Shown: one piece after another, positions 13,017 through 34,310 of the stretch | How the letters are laid out: each line of letters opens with the position of its first letter | Position numbering within the stretch: the stretch's first letter is position 1 | Notes under the pieces: model-generated | Seen by the model: the letters and a program-made list of their open reading frames with translations, nothing else | Told to the model about the DNA's origin: nothing | Database searches by the model: none | Position numbers and translations under genes: made by a program | NCBI GenBank assembly: GCA_019745775.1 | Contig: JAIESR010000003.1 | Span: 124,001-188,000, forward strand | From: Xanthobacteraceae bacterium | GTDB taxonomy: Bacteria > Pseudomonadota > Alphaproteobacteria > Rhizobiales > Xanthobacteraceae | DNA length: 64,000 bases | Direction of reading: 5' to 3'

Positions 13017-13054
13017 TTGTGAGATTGGACCTTCAAAGGAGCGGCGTGCACTGC

Positions 13055-13163
13055 TCGCCCCCTCTCCCCAGCGGGGAGAGGGTGGGGGTGAGGGGGGCTA
13101 GCTCTGTTGATAGGCTAGTAAGCCCCTCAATCCACCGCTCTCCCCTGCGGGGAGAGGGAGCCG
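13055..13163. repeat. Palindromic intergenic repeat, family 2
   Basis: Two self-pairing blocks, CCTCTCCCCAGCGGGGAGAG and CTCTCCCCTGCGGGGAGAGG, flank a G-rich/C-rich pair (GGGTGAGGGG with CCCCTCAATCC). It occupies the gap between the Mo-subunit and 2Fe-2S-subunit genes, the second such element inside this operon. Confidence 0.85.
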
Positions 13164-13209
13164 ACCGAGCCTGCGGCGCGGTCGTGTCTCTCACGGCGAT
13201 GGCATCGTG

Positions 13210-27712: not shown

Positions 27713-29530
27713 TCACCGATTCGGCACGGCCGATGCCGCGCGGGTGTCGAGCAGCGCCTCCAGCGTCTCGAGCCGGTCGGCTTCACCCGGCGGCTTGTCC
27801 CAGCGCAGCCGGCTGATGCGCGGGAAGCGCATCGCAAGGCCGGATTTGTGACGGCTGGAACGCTGCAGGCCTTCGAAGGCGACTTCGAGCACAAGACCCC
27901 GATTGCGCTCGTGCACGACCTCCCGCACCGGCCCGAACCGCTCCACGGTATTGCAGCGGACGAAGCGGTCGATCTCGAGAAGCTCCTCGTCGGTGAAGCC
28001 GAAATAGGCCTTGCCGACCGGCACCAGCACCTCTTCACCGTCGTTCACGGTCCAGACGCCGAAGGTGTAGTCGGAATAGAACGACGAGCGCTTGCCGCTG
28101 CCGCGTTGGGCGTACATCAGCACGGCGTCGACGGTGAAGGGGTCGCGTTTCCACTTCCACCACGGGCCTTTCGGGCGTCCCGGAACGTAGGGCGCGTCGC
28201 GGCGCTTGAGCATGAGGCCTTCGACCGCGTCCGCATCTTCACGCGCGCCGGCCGCAGCAGGGTCGGCGCGCGCGGCGGCGAGCTCATCCCAGGTCGCGAA
28301 CGGGATCAGGGGTGAGATGTCGATGCGCGGATCGTTCCGCCGCTCGATGAAGGCCTCGAGCCGGGCGCGGCGCTCCGCGAACGGACGCTCGCGCAAGTCC
28401 TCCGTGCCGTCGACCAGCAGATCGTAGACACGCAGATGCGCGGGAAATTCGGCGGTGAGCTTGGGCGTCACTGTTTTGCGGTTGAGCCGCTGTTGCAGGA
28501 CGTTGAAGCTCTGCACGCGGCCCTCGCGTACCACCAGCAACTCGCCGTCGATCGAGCCTTCGAAGCGCAACGAATCCAGGAGATCGGGGAAGCTTCTGGA
28601 AATGTCCTCGCCGGTGCGCGAATAGAGCCGGCATTGGCGCCTGCCGCCATGGGTTCCCGCCGAAGCCTGGACGCGGATGCCATCCCATTTCCATTCCGCC
28701 AGATAATCGGCGGGATCGAGCGCGGAGAAATCCGTCTCCTCAACGGCGTGCGCCAGCATCGCCGGGCGGAACGGCGCCGGGTCGCTGCTCGATGGCTTCT
28801 CGCTACGGCCTTCGAGCCAGGCGAACAGCTCCGTGTAAGGTGGCGCGAGGCCGGGCCAGAGCAGCTCGATTTCCTGCACATCCTTGTCGCCGAGCGCGGC
28901 GGCCGCGGTCTTGGCGAGCCGCGCCGACACGCCGACGCGCAGCGCGCCGGTGACGAGCTTGAGCAGCGCCCAGCGGCCGGTCTCGTCGAGCGCGTCGAGC
29001 CAGCGCGCGAGCTGTGCCGGAAGCTGCGCTTTGCCGAGCGTGGAGATGGTGGCGACCACGTCAGCAAGGCTCGGTACGCTTGTGTCGAGCTTTGCATTTG
29101 CCGAGCGCTCGGTGCGCTCCCCTCCACCCATTCGCGGAGCGAATGGCGGGGAGGGGTTGGGGGTGGGGGGCGTTTCGAACAGTACGGGCTCACCCCCCAC
29201 CCCCGACCCCTCCCCACCGCTACGCGGGGTGAGGGCAGCAGACCGAGTGCGCGGCAGCGGCGCCGGCCACATCAGGGCAATCGTTTCCGACGTATCGCCG
29301 ACATAATCGCGCGACAGGCCGAACAGCACCGGATCGGTGCGCTCGGTGATCAGCGTGCGCAACACGTTCGGCTTGGCGAATTGAAACGACAGCGCCCCGG
29401 TGAGCGCGGCGAGCGCATAGCCGCGGTCGGGATCGGGCGTATGCCGGAAATAGTCCGTCATCAGCCGCAGTTTGTTGTTGCGGCCGGGCTCGTAGGACAG
29501 GCGATCGAGCAGCTCGGCGAAGCGCTTCAT
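27713..29530 (-). CDS. ATP-dependent DNA ligase of the ligase-associated DNA damage response module
   Basis: A 605-residue ligase of the type named cisplatin damage response ligase. The N-terminal DNA-binding domain (MKRFAELLDRLSYEPGRNNK to about residue 250) is followed by the adenylation motif EWKWDGIRVQ with nucleophile Lys281, SIDGELLVV, GLMLKRRDAPYVPGRPKGPW WKWK and the OB-fold. It seals nicks after end processing by its partners. The start overlaps the exonuclease stop (ATGA). Oddity: residues 95-141 (TRS to RTE) are encoded by a palindromic repeat inserted in frame between ALMWPA and the SLADVV helix, a linker position in the N-terminal domain. The ligase core is intact. Confidence 0.93.
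   Translation of the reverse strand: MKRFAELLDRLSYEPGRNNKLRLMTDYFRHTPDPDRGYALAALTGALSFQFAKPNVLRTLITERTDPVLFGLSRDYVGDTSETIALMWPAPLPRTRSAALTPRSGGEGSGVGGEPVLFETPPTPNPSPPFAPRMGGGERTERSANAKLDTSVPSLADVVATISTLGKAQLPAQLARWLDALDETGRWALLKLVTGALRVGVSARLAKTAAAALGDKDVQEIELLWPGLAPPYTELFAWLEGRSEKPSSSDPAPFRPAMLAHAVEETDFSALDPADYLAEWKWDGIRVQASAGTHGGRRQCRLYSRTGEDISRSFPDLLDSLRFEGSIDGELLVVREGRVQSFNVLQQRLNRKTVTPKLTAEFPAHLRVYDLLVDGTEDLRERPFAERRARLEAFIERRNDPRIDISPLIPFATWDELAAARADPAAAGAREDADAVEGLMLKRRDAPYVPGRPKGPWWKWKRDPFTVDAVLMYAQRGSGKRSSFYSDYTFGVWTVNDGEEVLVPVGKAYFGFTDEELLEIDRFVRCNTVERFGPVREVVHERNRGLVLEVAFEGLQRSSRHKSGLAMRFPRISRLRWDKPPGEADRLETLEALLDTRAASAVPNR
29107..29247 (-). repeat. Intragenic palindromic element inside the ligase gene
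   Basis: Bounded by CTCGGT (29107-29112) and ACCGAG (29242-29247), with inner pairs of C-rich and G-rich tracts (GGGGTTGGGGGTGGGGGG against CCCCCCACCCCCGACCCC) and the hairpin CCATTCGCGGAGCGAATGG. Read on the ligase strand it aligns along its whole length with 31831-31970. The frame stays open through it. Confidence 0.88.
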
Positions 29531-30597
29531 GGCGTGTCGCCGGCGCTCTTGCCGTCCACTTTGCCGTCGGTGACGCCGTCGCTCTCGTCCTCGTCGCCAT
29601 AGCCGACGATGTCGAGCGGGCGTGCCTTCAGGCCGCGCTGCCGGCACCAATGCACCAGCGCGTCTTCCTGGCCGTGCGTGACCCAGATTTCCGGTGCGCC
29701 GGTCGCCGCGATGGTGGCGGTCAGGCCGTCCCAGTCGGAATGGTCGGAGATGACCAGCGGAAGTTCGACGCCGCGCTGGCGCGCCCGGGCGCGCACCCGC
29801 ATCCAGCCCGACGCGAACGACGACACCGGATCGGGGAAGCGGCGCGACCACACTTCTTGCAGCGCCGACGGCGGGCAGATCGCGATCGCGCCCGCCAGCT
29901 CGTCCTTCTTGGCGTCGCGCACGGCGCGCAATTCACCGAGCGCGATGCCGCGGCGCTCGTAGTAGCGCGTGATCGTCTCCATCGCGCCATGCAGATAGAT
30001 CGGCTGGTCGTACCCGGCCTTGCGGATCAGGGCGATGACGCGCTGCGCCTTGCCGAGCGAATAGGCCCCGATGAGGTGGGCGCGGTCGGGAAACAGCGCG
30101 GCCGAGTGCAGCAGCTTGCCGATCTCGCCGTCGGGATCGCCATGGCGGAACACCGGCAGGCCGAAGGTCGCCTCGGTGATGAACACGTCGCACTGCACCA
30201 GCTCGAACGGCGCGCAGGTCGGGTCGCCAACGTCCTTGTAGTCGCCGGCGGCGACGATCCGCAGGCCGTTGCACTCGACTGCGATCTGGGCGGAACCAAG
30301 CACGTGCCCGGCCGGATGGAAGGTCACGCGTGCCCCGCCGAGCGTGACGGTCTCGCCATAGCTGACGGCCTGGGTCGTACCGGCGAAATTCTCGCCGTAG
30401 CGCAGCCGCATCAGGTCGAGGGTCTCCTGCGTGGCCATGACCGCGCCATGGCCCGCCCGTGCATGGTCGGAATGGCCATGGGTGATCAGCGCTTTCTCCA
30501 CCGGCCGCGTCGGGTCGATGTAGAAACCGCCGGGCTTGCAGCACACGCCCGCGGGCGTCGGCATCAGGATGTCTTCGGGGCGGATGTTCGCAGGCAT
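29527..30597 (-). CDS. MBL-fold exonuclease of the ligase-associated DNA damage response module
   Basis: A 356-residue metallo-beta-lactamase/beta-CASP nuclease. It has the metal motif THGHSDHARAGH (His40, His42, Asp44, His45), HPAGHVLGSAQIAVEC, AAGDYKDVGDPTCAPFE, TEATFGLPVFRHGD and the beta-CASP segments SLGKAQRVIALIRKAGYDQP, ISDHSDWDGL and VTHGQEDALV. It should process DNA ends for the ligase encoded downstream, whose ATG overlaps its stop. The last 25 residues are acidic and probably disordered. It starts 42 bases from the divergent methyltransferase-helicase operon. Confidence 0.94.
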   Translation of the reverse strand: MPANIRPEDILMPTPAGVCCKPGGFYIDPTRPVEKALITHGHSDHARAGHGAVMATQETLDLMRLRYGENFAGTTQAVSYGETVTLGGARVTFHPAGHVLGSAQIAVECNGLRIVAAGDYKDVGDPTCAPFELVQCDVFITEATFGLPVFRHGDPDGEIGKLLHSAALFPDRAHLIGAYSLGKAQRVIALIRKAGYDQPIYLHGAMETITRYYERRGIALGELRAVRDAKKDELAGAIAICPPSALQEVWSRRFPDPVSSFASGWMRVRARARQRGVELPLVISDHSDWDGLTATIAATGAPEIWVTHGQEDALVHWCRQRGLKARPLDIVGYGDEDESDGVTDGKVDGKSAGDTP

Positions 30598-30639
30598 GAA
30601 CCGTTTACATAAGGTCGGCGTGCGCGCTTAGGTACCCCG
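30598..30639. promoter_or_regulatory. Compact divergent intergenic region of the DNA repair module
   Basis: Only 42 bases separate the start codons of the exonuclease (leftward) and the methyltransferase (rightward). Any promoters must overlap or lie partly in the coding regions, which would tie expression of the two halves together. I see no clear SOS box or -35/-10 pair. Confidence 0.4.
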
Positions 30640-31596
30640 ATGCAATACTTCGTTTCCTCCGGCGACCTGACCGCCGACCGGCGTTTTGAGTTCGGCAAGG
30701 ACCTCGAAAAGCGCGGCGACCTCGCCGGCGCCGCCGATCTCTACGCGCAGGCCGTCGAGGTGGCGCCCGACTTCGCATCGGCCTGGTTCGCGCTGGGGGA
30801 AGTGCGGGTGCGGCTCGGCGAGACCGGCGCCGCGGCCGACGCGTTCCGCCGCGCGCTCGCGGCCGAGCCGGAGGACCGCCACGGTGCGACCGTGCAGCTC
30901 GCGCGGCTGACCGGCGCGGCGGCGCCGATGCCGGCCGGCTATGTGCGCGCACTGTTCGACCAGTATGCCAAGCACTACGACCTTTCATTGCTGGAAGGGC
31001 TCGACTATCGCGGACCGCAGCTTCTGTTCGATGCGGTCATCACGGCGTGCAGCGCACTCGGGCGTGTTCCGTGGTTCGGTCGCGCCCTCGATATTGGCTG
31101 CGGCACGGGATTGGCTGGCGCCGCGTTCGCCGCGCGGGTCGATTCGCTCGTTGGCGTCGATCTCTCCGCCGCCATGATCGAGCAGGCGCGCCGCACCGGC
31201 CGCTACGAGGAGCTCCACGTCGCCGACGTGCCCGACTTCCTGGCGCGCGAAAGCGCGCGCAGCGCCAGTCTCGTCGTCGCCGCCGATGTGCTGCCCTATT
31301 GCTCCGATCTTGCGCCGCTGGTGCGTGAGGTCGCGCGCGTGCTCGATGCGGGCGCACTCTTCGCCTTCACGACCGAAACGCACGAGGGCAATGGCGTGTT
31401 GCTAAGGGAAACGCTGCGCTACGCGCACGGCGAGGATCACGTCCGGGCCGCGCTGGGGAGTGCCGGGCTCGCCTGCGTCAGCCTCGCGGCGGCTTCCTCG
31501 CGCCGGGAGAAGAGCGTCCCGGTGCCGGGGCTGGTCGTGGTGGCGGCGAAACCGGCCTCGACCAGGCCCGTTTCGGACACTACTTCTAACGCGTGA
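30640..31596 (+). CDS. TPR-containing class I SAM-dependent methyltransferase
   Basis: A 318-residue protein. The N-terminal part (about residues 15-85) has two TPR-like units (GDLAGAADLYAQAVEVAPDF and ETGAAADAFRRALAAEPED). The methyltransferase domain has the SAM motif RALDIGCGTGLAGAAF (near residue 150), the acidic VGVDLSAAMIEQAR and LVVAADVLPYCSDLAPLV. The region before motif I (ALFDQYAKHYDLSLLEGLDY) is typical of this TPR-methyltransferase group. Substrate unknown. Its stop overlaps the helicase GTG by four bases (GTGA), so it is cotranslated with a DNA repair helicase, although methyltransferases are not among the usual partners of the module. Confidence 0.88.
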   Translation: MQYFVSSGDLTADRRFEFGKDLEKRGDLAGAADLYAQAVEVAPDFASAWFALGEVRVRLGETGAAADAFRRALAAEPEDRHGATVQLARLTGAAAPMPAGYVRALFDQYAKHYDLSLLEGLDYRGPQLLFDAVITACSALGRVPWFGRALDIGCGTGLAGAAFAARVDSLVGVDLSAAMIEQARRTGRYEELHVADVPDFLARESARSASLVVAADVLPYCSDLAPLVREVARVLDAGALFAFTTETHEGNGVLLRETLRYAHGEDHVRAALGSAGLACVSLAAASSRREKSVPVPGLVVVAAKPASTRPVSDTTSNA

Positions 31597-34310
31597 CCGT
31601 TCTCGAACGTCCCGACGCCATCACGCTGCCCGAGCCATTCACACGCTGGTTTGCCCAGCGCGGCTGGCAACCGCGCGCGCACCAGCTCGCATTGCTGGCG
31701 AAGGCGCGCGCCGGCCGCTCGGTGCTGCTGATCGCGCCGACCGGCGCCGGCAAGACGCTGGCGGGATTTCTGCCGAGCCTGGTGGAACTGAGCGGCGCGC
31801 TTTCCGATGGGAGCACGTCCGTGCGGCAGACTCGGTCTGTGCCCCTCCCCCCGCGAAGCGGCGGGGAGGGGTTAGGGGTGGGGGGCGACCTGCTCTCGAT
31901 CGCGCCACCCCCCACCCCCGACCCCTCCCCACCATTCGCTGCGCGAATGGGAGGAGGGGGGCGCACCGAGCCAGCCTCGCGATCAAACGCATCACGCAAG
32001 CTCATCTCCACCGGCCGCGACGTGCGGCGCGAGGGCGGGCTGCACACGCTCTATATCTCGCCGCTGAAGGCGCTCGCGGTCGACATCGCGCGCAACCTCG
32101 AAACGCCGGTCGCCGAGATGAAGCTGCCGATCCGGATCGAGACCCGCACCGGCGACACGCCGGCCTCGAAGCGGCAACGCCAGCGCCGCGATCCGCCGCA
32201 CATTCTGCTCACGACACCCGAGCAGCTCGCGCTGATCCTGGCCTCGCCCGATGCGCCGTTCCTGTTCGGCTCGTTGCGCCGTATCGTGCTCGACGAGTTG
32301 CACGCGCTGGTGACGTCGAAGCGGGGCGATCTGCTTTCGCTTGGCTTGGCGCGCCTGTTCGCGCTGGCGCCTGGCCTCACCTCGGTCGGTCTCTCGGCGA
32401 CCGTCGCCGAGCCTGACGACCTGCGCCGTTACCTGATGCCGCAGCCGCAAAGCGCGCCGCTGCTCGCCGACCTCGTCATCGCCGACGAAGGCGCGCCCCC
32501 GCACGTCACCATGCTCGACACCGCCGAGCGCCTGCCGTGGGCCGGACACTCGGCGCGGCACGCCATCGGCGAAGTTTACGGGCTGATCAGGCAGCACAAG
32601 ACCACGCTGGTGTTCGTCAACACCCGCAGCCAGGCCGAGGCGATCTTCCAGCAGCTCTGGGGCATCAACGACGACAATCTCGCGATCGCCCTGCACCACG
32701 GCTCGCTCGACGTCGCGCAGCGCCGCAAGGTCGAGCAGGCGATGACGGTCGGCCGGCTGCGCGCCGTGGTCTGCACCTCGTCGCTCGATCTCGGCGTCGA
32801 TTGGGGCGACGTCGACCTGGTGATCAATGTCGGCGCGCCGAAGGGGGCGTCGCGGCTCCTGCAACGCATCGGCCGCGCCAACCACCGCATGGACGAGCCG
32901 TCGCGCGGCGTGCTGATCCCCGCCAACCGCTTCGAGGTGCTGGAATGCACCGCCGCGCTCGGCGCGATCGCCGCCAAGGCGCAGGACACGCCGCCGGCCC
33001 GCGTCGGCGCGCTCGACGTCCTTGCGCAGCATGTGCTTGGCCGCGCCTGCGGCGAGCCGTTCCTTGCCGATGAGCTCTACGCCGAGGTGAAGAGTGCCGC
33101 GCCCTACAGCGAACTCGAACGATCGGATTTCGACGCCGTGGTCGATTTCGTCGCCACCGGCGGCTACGCGCTCAAGGCCTATGAGCGCTTCGCCAAGATC
33201 AGGCAGGGCAAGGATGGCCGCTGGCGCGTCGCGCATCCGATGATCGCGCAACGCTACCGGATGAATGTCGGCACCATTGTCGAAGCCGATATGCTGAAGG
33301 TGCGGCTGGTGCGCTCGCGCGCCTCGAGGCTGATCCCGCGCGGCGGGCGGCTGCTTGGCGAGGTCGAAGAATATTTCATCGAGATGCTCACGCCTGGCGA
33401 CACCTTCGTGTTCGCCGGCGAGGTCTTGCGTTACGAGGCGATCGTCGAGGACGAGGTCTATGTCTCGCGCGCGGCGTCCGAAGATCCGAAGGTGCCGTCC
33501 TACGAAGGCGGCAAATTTCCGCTCTCGACCTATCTCGCCGATCGCGTGCGGGAGATCGTCTCCGATGGCAGGCTTTGGGGCGAGCTGCCGCCGCAGGTGC
33601 GCGAATGGCTCGACATCCAGCGCTGGCGCTCGATCCTGCCGGGCCGACGCGATCTGCTGGTCGAGACCTTCCCGCGCGCGAACAAGTACTATCTCGTTTG
33701 TTATCCGTTCGAGGGGCGCCTTGCGCACCAGACGCTCGGCATGTTGCTGACGCGGCGCCTCGAACGCGCGCGACTGCGACCGATGGGTTTCGTCGCCAAC
33801 GAATACGCGCTGGCGATCTGGGGGCTGGGCGACGTTGCGTTGCGTCTTTCGCGTGGTGAGCTCTCACTTGCGGATCTGTTCGACGAGGACATGCTGGGCG
33901 ACGATCTCGAAGCCTGGCTCGCGGAGTCCGCGCTGATGAAGCGCACGTTTCGCAACTGTGCGATCATCGCCGGTCTGATCGAGCGGCGATTCCCGGGCCA
34001 GGAGAAATCGCGCCGCGAGGTGACGATATCCACCGATCTCGTCTACGATGTGCTGCGCAAACACCAGGCCGACCATGTGCTATTGCGCGCGGCGCGCGCC
34101 GATGCCGGTAGCGGGCTGCTGGATATCCGTCGTCTTGGCGAAATGCTCTCGCGCATCCGGGGTCGAATCATCCATAAGTCTCTCGACCATGTCTCGCCAC
34201 TCGCGGTTCCCGTGATGCTGGAGATCGGCCGCGAGATGGTTTACGGCGAAGCGTCCGACGAGCTGCTGAAGGAAGCCGAAGCGGAACTCGTGAAGGAGGC
34301 GATGCAGTGA
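31593..34310 (+). CDS. Lhr-like DEXH-box helicase of the ligase-associated DNA damage response module
   Basis: A 905-residue Lhr-core helicase starting at a GTG inside the methyltransferase stop. Motif I LIAPTGAGKTLAGFLPS (about 47-62), motif Ia TLYISPLKALAVDI (about 152), motif II IVLDELHALVTSKRGD (near 232), motif III VGLSATVAEPDDL, motif V and VI VCTSSLDLGVDWG and QRIGRANHRMDEPSRG, then the winged-helix and Lhr-core C-terminal domains. It unwinds DNA 3' to 5' with ATP. Residues 80-126 come from an in-frame palindromic repeat between motifs I and Ia. All helicase motifs are intact. Confidence 0.94.
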   Translation: MTVLERPDAITLPEPFTRWFAQRGWQPRAHQLALLAKARAGRSVLLIAPTGAGKTLAGFLPSLVELSGALSDGSTSVRQTRSVPLPPRSGGEGLGVGGDLLSIAPPPTPDPSPPFAARMGGGGRTEPASRSNASRKLISTGRDVRREGGLHTLYISPLKALAVDIARNLETPVAEMKLPIRIETRTGDTPASKRQRQRRDPPHILLTTPEQLALILASPDAPFLFGSLRRIVLDELHALVTSKRGDLLSLGLARLFALAPGLTSVGLSATVAEPDDLRRYLMPQPQSAPLLADLVIADEGAPPHVTMLDTAERLPWAGHSARHAIGEVYGLIRQHKTTLVFVNTRSQAEAIFQQLWGINDDNLAIALHHGSLDVAQRRKVEQAMTVGRLRAVVCTSSLDLGVDWGDVDLVINVGAPKGASRLLQRIGRANHRMDEPSRGVLIPANRFEVLECTAALGAIAAKAQDTPPARVGALDVLAQHVLGRACGEPFLADELYAEVKSAAPYSELERSDFDAVVDFVATGGYALKAYERFAKIRQGKDGRWRVAHPMIAQRYRMNVGTIVEADMLKVRLVRSRASRLIPRGGRLLGEVEEYFIEMLTPGDTFVFAGEVLRYEAIVEDEVYVSRAASEDPKVPSYEGGKFPLSTYLADRVREIVSDGRLWGELPPQVREWLDIQRWRSILPGRRDLLVETFPRANKYYLVCYPFEGRLAHQTLGMLLTRRLERARLRPMGFVANEYALAIWGLGDVALRLSRGELSLADLFDEDMLGDDLEAWLAESALMKRTFRNCAIIAGLIERRFPGQEKSRREVTISTDLVYDVLRKHQADHVLLRAARADAGSGLLDIRRLGEMLSRIRGRIIHKSLDHVSPLAVPVMLEIGREMVYGEASDELLKEAEAELVKEAMQ
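31831..31970 (+). repeat. Intragenic palindromic element inside the helicase gene
   Basis: Bounded by CTCGGT (31831-31836) and ACCGAG (31965-31970). Inner pairs are GGGGTTAGGGGTGGGG with CCCCACCCCCGACCCC, and the hairpins CCGCGAAGCGG and CCATTCGCTGCGCGAATGG. It has the same orientation relative to its gene and the same frame as the copy in the ligase gene at 29107-29247. Confidence 0.88.

Follow-up and report, generated by a model that had tools for sequence, protein, structure and literature searches.

In Alphaproteobacteria, genes of the DUF559 family, which encode Vsr-like nucleases, are generally paired with inverted hairpin repeats, and the number of such hairpins in a genome follows the presence of DUF559. 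Two copies of a repeat composed of C/G-rich hairpins of this kind lie in frame within a helicase gene and a DNA ligase gene of a Xanthobacteraceae bacterium, in a window of 64,000 nucleotides (the whole stretch of DNA analysed). We regard it as probable, though by no means strongly so, that they represent a MITE/REPIN-like repeat, tolerated by the host proteins as a disordered loop, which also has a gene-bearing form with a DUF559 nuclease by which it would be mobilised. The wider proposal is that DUF559 nucleases and paired C/G-rich hairpins make up a type of bacterial mobile element not described before: the hairpins would be spread by the nuclease, and copies lacking the gene would insert in frame, time and again, into the same surface linkers of proteins. 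We put it forward tentatively, its chances being a little short of even. One class of palindromes is here linked, against controls, to a gene for a small nuclease; this gene occurs in Escherichia coli (ycjD), in Neisseria and widely in Alphaproteobacteria, and current annotations give it a repair function or an unknown one. If correct, the proposal would name the mover of a class of alphaproteobacterial palindromes and would explain a likely annotation puzzle, the PPTPNPSPP-type proline/glycine-rich segments inside conserved proteins.

The inserts and the repeat family to which they belong

Between positions 27713 and 35020 the window carries, in order, a ligase, a metallo-beta-lactamase-like exonuclease, a methyltransferase-like gene, an Lhr-type helicase and a phosphoesterase-like gene, an arrangement that we take to resemble the known Lhr-Core repair neighbourhood. 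The features considered here are the following.

13025..13170 (approximate limits), plus strand: related, more divergent hairpin repeat (CCCCTCTCCCCAGCGGGGAGAGGGTGGGGGTGAGGG; CCCTCTCCCC..GGGGAGAGGG type) with 3 mismatches to the core
27713..29530, minus strand: ATP-dependent DNA ligase, 605 aa from the ATG at 29530 (Pfam DNA_ligase_A_M and DNA_ligase_A_C)
29108..29248, minus strand: in-frame palindromic element in the ligase gene, 47 codons, TRSAALTPRSGGEG...MGGGERTE, folding z-score -9.2
29194..29247, minus strand: left half-element (gene orientation) of the ligase copy
29107..29169, plus strand: right half-element (inverted relative to the gene) of the ligase copy
31593..34310, plus strand: Lhr-type DEAD/H helicase, 905 aa (Pfam DEAD, Helicase_C, WH_Lhr, DEAD_assoc)
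31830..31970, plus strand: in-frame palindromic element in the helicase gene, 47 codons, TRSVPLPPRSGGEG...MGGGGRTE, folding z-score -7.9
31831..31884, plus strand: left half-element of the helicase copy, hairpin CCCCTCCCCCCGCGAAGCGGCGGGGAGGGG and core
31909..31970, minus strand: right half-element (inverted) of the helicase copy, with the longer apical stem ATTCGC...GCGAAT

An initial annotation had described the helicase and ligase segments as two copies of one element, and DNA alignment bears this out: they can be aligned over about 140 bp, in matching orientation and reading frame, between CTCGGT and ACCGAG, and their 47 codons each align without gaps to give 33 of 47 identical residues, as it had counted (maximum of 15 in 20,000 shuffles of one insert peptide). 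The hexamers do bound both copies, but they are not the exact limits of the element, since among 63 aligned half-elements conservation runs about 12 bp past CTCGGT and stops about 18 bp outside the C-rich arm; CTCGGT thus lies near the element end. Each element consists of two half-elements set face to face, in each of which a C-rich/G-rich hairpin precedes sequence of the GGGGTGGGGG type (both together forming the core, GGGGAGGGGTNNGGGGTGGGGG), with a short apical stem in the left half (CCGCGAAGCGG) and a longer one in the right (ATTCGC..GCGAAT). Both inserts are predicted to fold into a single long double hairpin (-108.8 and -104.4 kcal/mol for the ligase and helicase copies), and Rfam returned for these elements weak microRNA models, far under cut-offs and attributable to the long C/G hairpin alone.

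Neither insert has a stop codon within its reading frame. Two of the three forward frames are stop-free in each window copy, the frame in use being the sole one open in both, and a frame preference is suggested, if not proven, by the sequences. That one frame is kept open, as had been claimed, agrees also with the sister species, whose ligase insert is longer by whole codons, and with the reading of the right half as PPTPxPSP or TPTPxPSP in all five genes known to carry it (those for the helicase, the ligase, HrpB, ThiC and a UbiH-like protein). Constraint on the helicase insert is, by the measure of pN/pS (0.46 versus 0.10 downstream), relaxed. An AlphaFold2 model of the helicase, made with 21 orthologues as input and of modest to low overall confidence (mean pLDDT 61), places the insert between the Walker A helix (residues 54-68, model numbering) and the next strand (151-155), in a loop whose residues 71-145 are unstructured (pLDDT about 30); the corresponding linker mostly has about 17 residues among 72 measurable helicase loci.

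The repeat is genome-wide, a search of the host genome (G000; 6.3 Mb, 147 contigs, 99.99% complete) giving 53 matches to the core and none to a reversed control pattern. The 37 further loci examined there hold mostly intergenic copies; the earlier idea of a protein-coding mobile repeat therefore stands as regards a dispersed palindrome that enters genes in frame, but not as regards any special protein-coding character. Additional in-frame copies occur within or between the conserved domains of HrpB (L183), ThiC (L205) and a UbiH-like FAD monooxygenase (L173), and several other genic copies reach no further than putative N-terminal extensions, where the start codon was probably misassigned. Two genes of one repair module do both have the insert, but coincidence and tolerant linkers may account for it. 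The thiC gene of L205 (1429-3513) has near its C-terminal end a second repeat-like segment, GPSPHPEEGARAPVSKDEAERGM, seemingly an in-frame repeat of another sort. When plasmids were searched with the element, a single distant copy came to light and nothing more.

DUF559 genes between inverted hairpins

When the loci gathered from the host genome were scanned for facing pairs (a plus-strand core followed by a minus-strand core), every pair more than 120 bp apart (5/5) enclosed DUF559 sequence and nothing else: two intact genes (L177 and L199), with their half-elements 375-414 bp apart, and three internally deleted ones (L184 and two in L202). Gaps of less than 120 bp held no DUF559. The same halves thus surround intact and internally deleted genes, and the short copies fit non-autonomous derivatives of the gene-bearing unit. 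The enclosed protein matches 3hrl, an endonuclease-like protein of solved structure, with an E-value of 2.8e-20. Pfam PF04480 gives 10 matches over its curated cut-off in the host genome, which correspond to nine genes (one being split by a frameshift), and by inspection and BLAST inverted hairpins stand around seven of the nine, the flanks of another, L210, being partly visible near a contig start; a 505-aa DUF559 frame (L217) had no inverted hairpins around it.

The pairing extends well past this genome. With inverted repeats required within 400 bp on both sides at an E-value of 1e-4, 61 of 77 DUF559 loci in the host family lie between inverted hairpin repeats, against 0/77 for outer windows (790-1200 bp away) and 0/160 for other small coding-like Hyphomicrobiales open reading frames, and in other alphaproteobacterial families 19 of 39 DUF559 genes are so flanked (outer windows 0/36); some DUF559 genes have no detectable flanking repeats. 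Arms match in 26 of 38 comparisons within a locus versus 24 of 116 between loci, so that each DUF559 gene appears to travel with its own hairpin subfamily. In Neisseria gonorrhoeae (L289, 3315 bp) a DUF559 gene also stands between inverted CCCTCTCCCTGTGGG repeats, so that Betaproteobacteria may share the pairing. In E. coli the DUF559 gene ycjD, flanked by sapF and fabI (L291, NZ_CP014269.1 2151900-2154100), has CCCTC-type hairpins downstream, and of 5426 E. coli genomes 3330 retain the query region at a level of at least 80%.

Hairpin number was compared with DUF559 presence in 241 alphaproteobacterial genomes, some of them drafts, by counting the generic palindrome CCCTCYCCN{3,26}GGRGAGGG and seeking PF04480 at an E-value of about 1e-11 or better, the tallies being combined by hand from two tables. 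At least 10 hairpins were found in 40 of the 63 genomes with DUF559 versus 5 of the 178 without it (Fisher 8e-24, a value to be read with the genomes being related and not independent), and the median number per genome was 19 versus 0. Within families holding both kinds of genome, the mean with DUF559 was higher in 20, lower in 4 and tied in 2 (p 0.0015). A reversed-pattern control for composition was near zero in nearly all genomes, the main exception being G161 with 94.

In the explanation that we prefer, the inserts would be copies of a mobile repeat made of two facing hairpin half-elements, the DUF559 nuclease would nick or cut the hairpin ends or a target, and host repair or replication would then copy the element into a new site, a mobilisation analogous to that of REPINs by RAYT but with another enzyme. 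Inserts within genes would persist only if their length were a multiple of three, one frame were open and the loop were tolerated, and they probably bring the host no benefit. Alternatively, DUF559 may merely ride along with the hairpins, or they may serve it as repair substrates without being moved by it. Were another enzyme, such as a transposase acting in trans, to mobilise the palindromes, with DUF559 as cargo between repeats or using the hairpins for its own expression, it would be natural that DUF559 genes are far fewer than hairpins and that several repeat-rich genomes have no strong DUF559 match (G138, G231, G294 and G327; gene loss, incomplete assembly or another mover are possible reasons in G138, G294 and G327). 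We consider such a passenger role rather unlikely, given that, of the wide half-element pairs examined in the host genome, none encloses anything but DUF559, that arms match within loci while control frames are never flanked, and that hairpins track DUF559 within families.

Insertion sites in relatives

A sister species (G004; L039/L206), assembled independently, has both window inserts at identical sites and in identical frames, and both were therefore most simply present in the common ancestor. Both are absent from L032, L034 and L037, and the helicase insert also from L030 and L033. The ligase site has a full element in L033, a right half in L036 and a scar in L030, and the helicase site has other repeat-like inserts in G006, in L031 and in Xanthobacter (L040/L041). 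At a single site in HrpB the host and its sister species have different element types, G006 has one hairpin and G007 another palindrome; in the G007 linker (L345, around 1280-1340) the sequence CAACCCGGGCTTGCCCGGGTTG occupies the place of the C-rich elements of G000 and G004. The ThiC insert, which stands in place of about seven residues of the empty site, is absent from G004 and G006 (one flank being 93-94% identical), and G007 has another repeat there. The DUF559 units vary as well, L177 being absent from G004 and G006, and L199 being present in G004, reduced to a solo hairpin in G006 and absent from G002 and G005. Different palindromes at the same sites across relatives indicate that the same tolerant linkers were struck repeatedly. 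No clean target-site duplication was seen at the helicase, ligase, L177, L199, HrpB or ThiC sites by comparison with insert-free relatives, whose empty sites are diverged or altered. E. coli ycjD was considered as a source of a clean empty site and set aside, since an efflux operon replaces it in the three ycjD-less genomes inspected and no simple empty site is thus to be had from that species.

Instead of transposition, such recurrence at one site might reflect dispersed repeats converting one another, or errors of replication at C-rich linkers that are prone to form hairpins. The differing palindrome types at the HrpB, ThiC, helicase and ligase sites of relatives are in keeping with this, and the solo hairpin of G006 resembles the internal collapse of a pair; these processes leave the spread to new loci and the enclosed DUF559 genes unexplained, and we hold them improbable. 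A classical REP/REPIN system moved by a RAYT (Y1) transposase is very unlikely: the elements look REPIN-like in being inverted pairs of short, mostly intergenic palindromes, and intragenic REPs in DNA repair genes have been described (PMC3733652), but the Y1_Tnp family (PF01797) has no match in the 99.99%-complete host genome, where RAYT is accordingly rejected as mover, while 5 of 14 control genomes score, and the GTAG tag is absent from the hairpin foot, the aligned ends giving instead a (C)TCGGTCTG-like foot. Hardly credible is an ancestral or functionally selected protein segment common to ligase and helicase, to which the identical frame and similar peptide in both proteins and the similar segment at the same place in the L033 ligase might point, since most orthologues lack it, its DNA is a genome-wide and mostly intergenic repeat, other genera have other palindromes at the same sites, and constraint is relaxed. 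Absence from most orthologues and presence in an independent sister assembly together leave the inserts as neither an ancestral segment nor an assembly artefact, the two outcomes against which the initial annotation was to be checked.

Comparison with known systems

The preferred reading, a hairpin repeat with a DUF559-bearing form, shares traits with several known systems. Rickettsia palindromic elements (RPE) are about 100-150 bp long. The present element resembles them as a dispersed palindrome found in frame within unrelated conserved genes (helicase, ligase, HrpB, ThiC, UbiH-like) and translated as a tolerated segment, but copies in the host genome are mostly intergenic and a DUF559-bearing form exists; RPE are set apart here by description, with a difference in sequence to be expected, and the named organisms closest to the host belong to Hyphomicrobiales, not Rickettsiales.

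The CGTC-tagged REPs, found mainly in Alphaproteobacteria, where they predominate, and apparently without a dedicated transposase (Di Nocera et al. 2013, PMC3733652), are likewise palindromic and sometimes lie within genes. They are short, however, with stems of 8-9 bp and loops of 4-5 nt (PMC3733652), and the host units are longer C/G-rich hairpins that differ from them in stem and loop and have no CGTC tag. To REPINs the likeness lies in inverted palindrome pairs, seen here also, of high copy number and non-autonomous, which are akin to the sequences on either side of a small gene for a nuclease (PMC3116915, PMC3733652), the gene in this case being for a Vsr-like PD-(D/E)XK DUF559 protein and not for a Y1 HUH transposase.

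The enclosed protein belongs, over the curated cut-off, to the same family (PF04480) as Vsr, YcjD and 3hrl. YcjD has been placed with Vsr in the PD-(D/E)XK superfamily (PMC1189080), and recent work connects a DUF559 protein of Caulobacter with DNA damage (PMC12907096). Known or proposed roles concern mismatch repair and DNA damage, not palindromic repeats, in the literature searched. That search covered open-access papers, most subscription journals lying outside its scope, and found none that joins DUF559, Vsr or ycjD with palindromic repeats; the novelty of the link is provisional. Finally, as in MITEs, short inverted-repeat derivatives and internally deleted forms accompany a gene-bearing unit, and the short copies share their terminal inverted repeats with the gene-bearing units of the host genome, both intact (L177, L199) and deleted (L184, L202); the difference is that the gene product is a nuclease of a type with no established transposase role, and no target-site duplication was seen in comparisons with empty sites that are diverged or altered.
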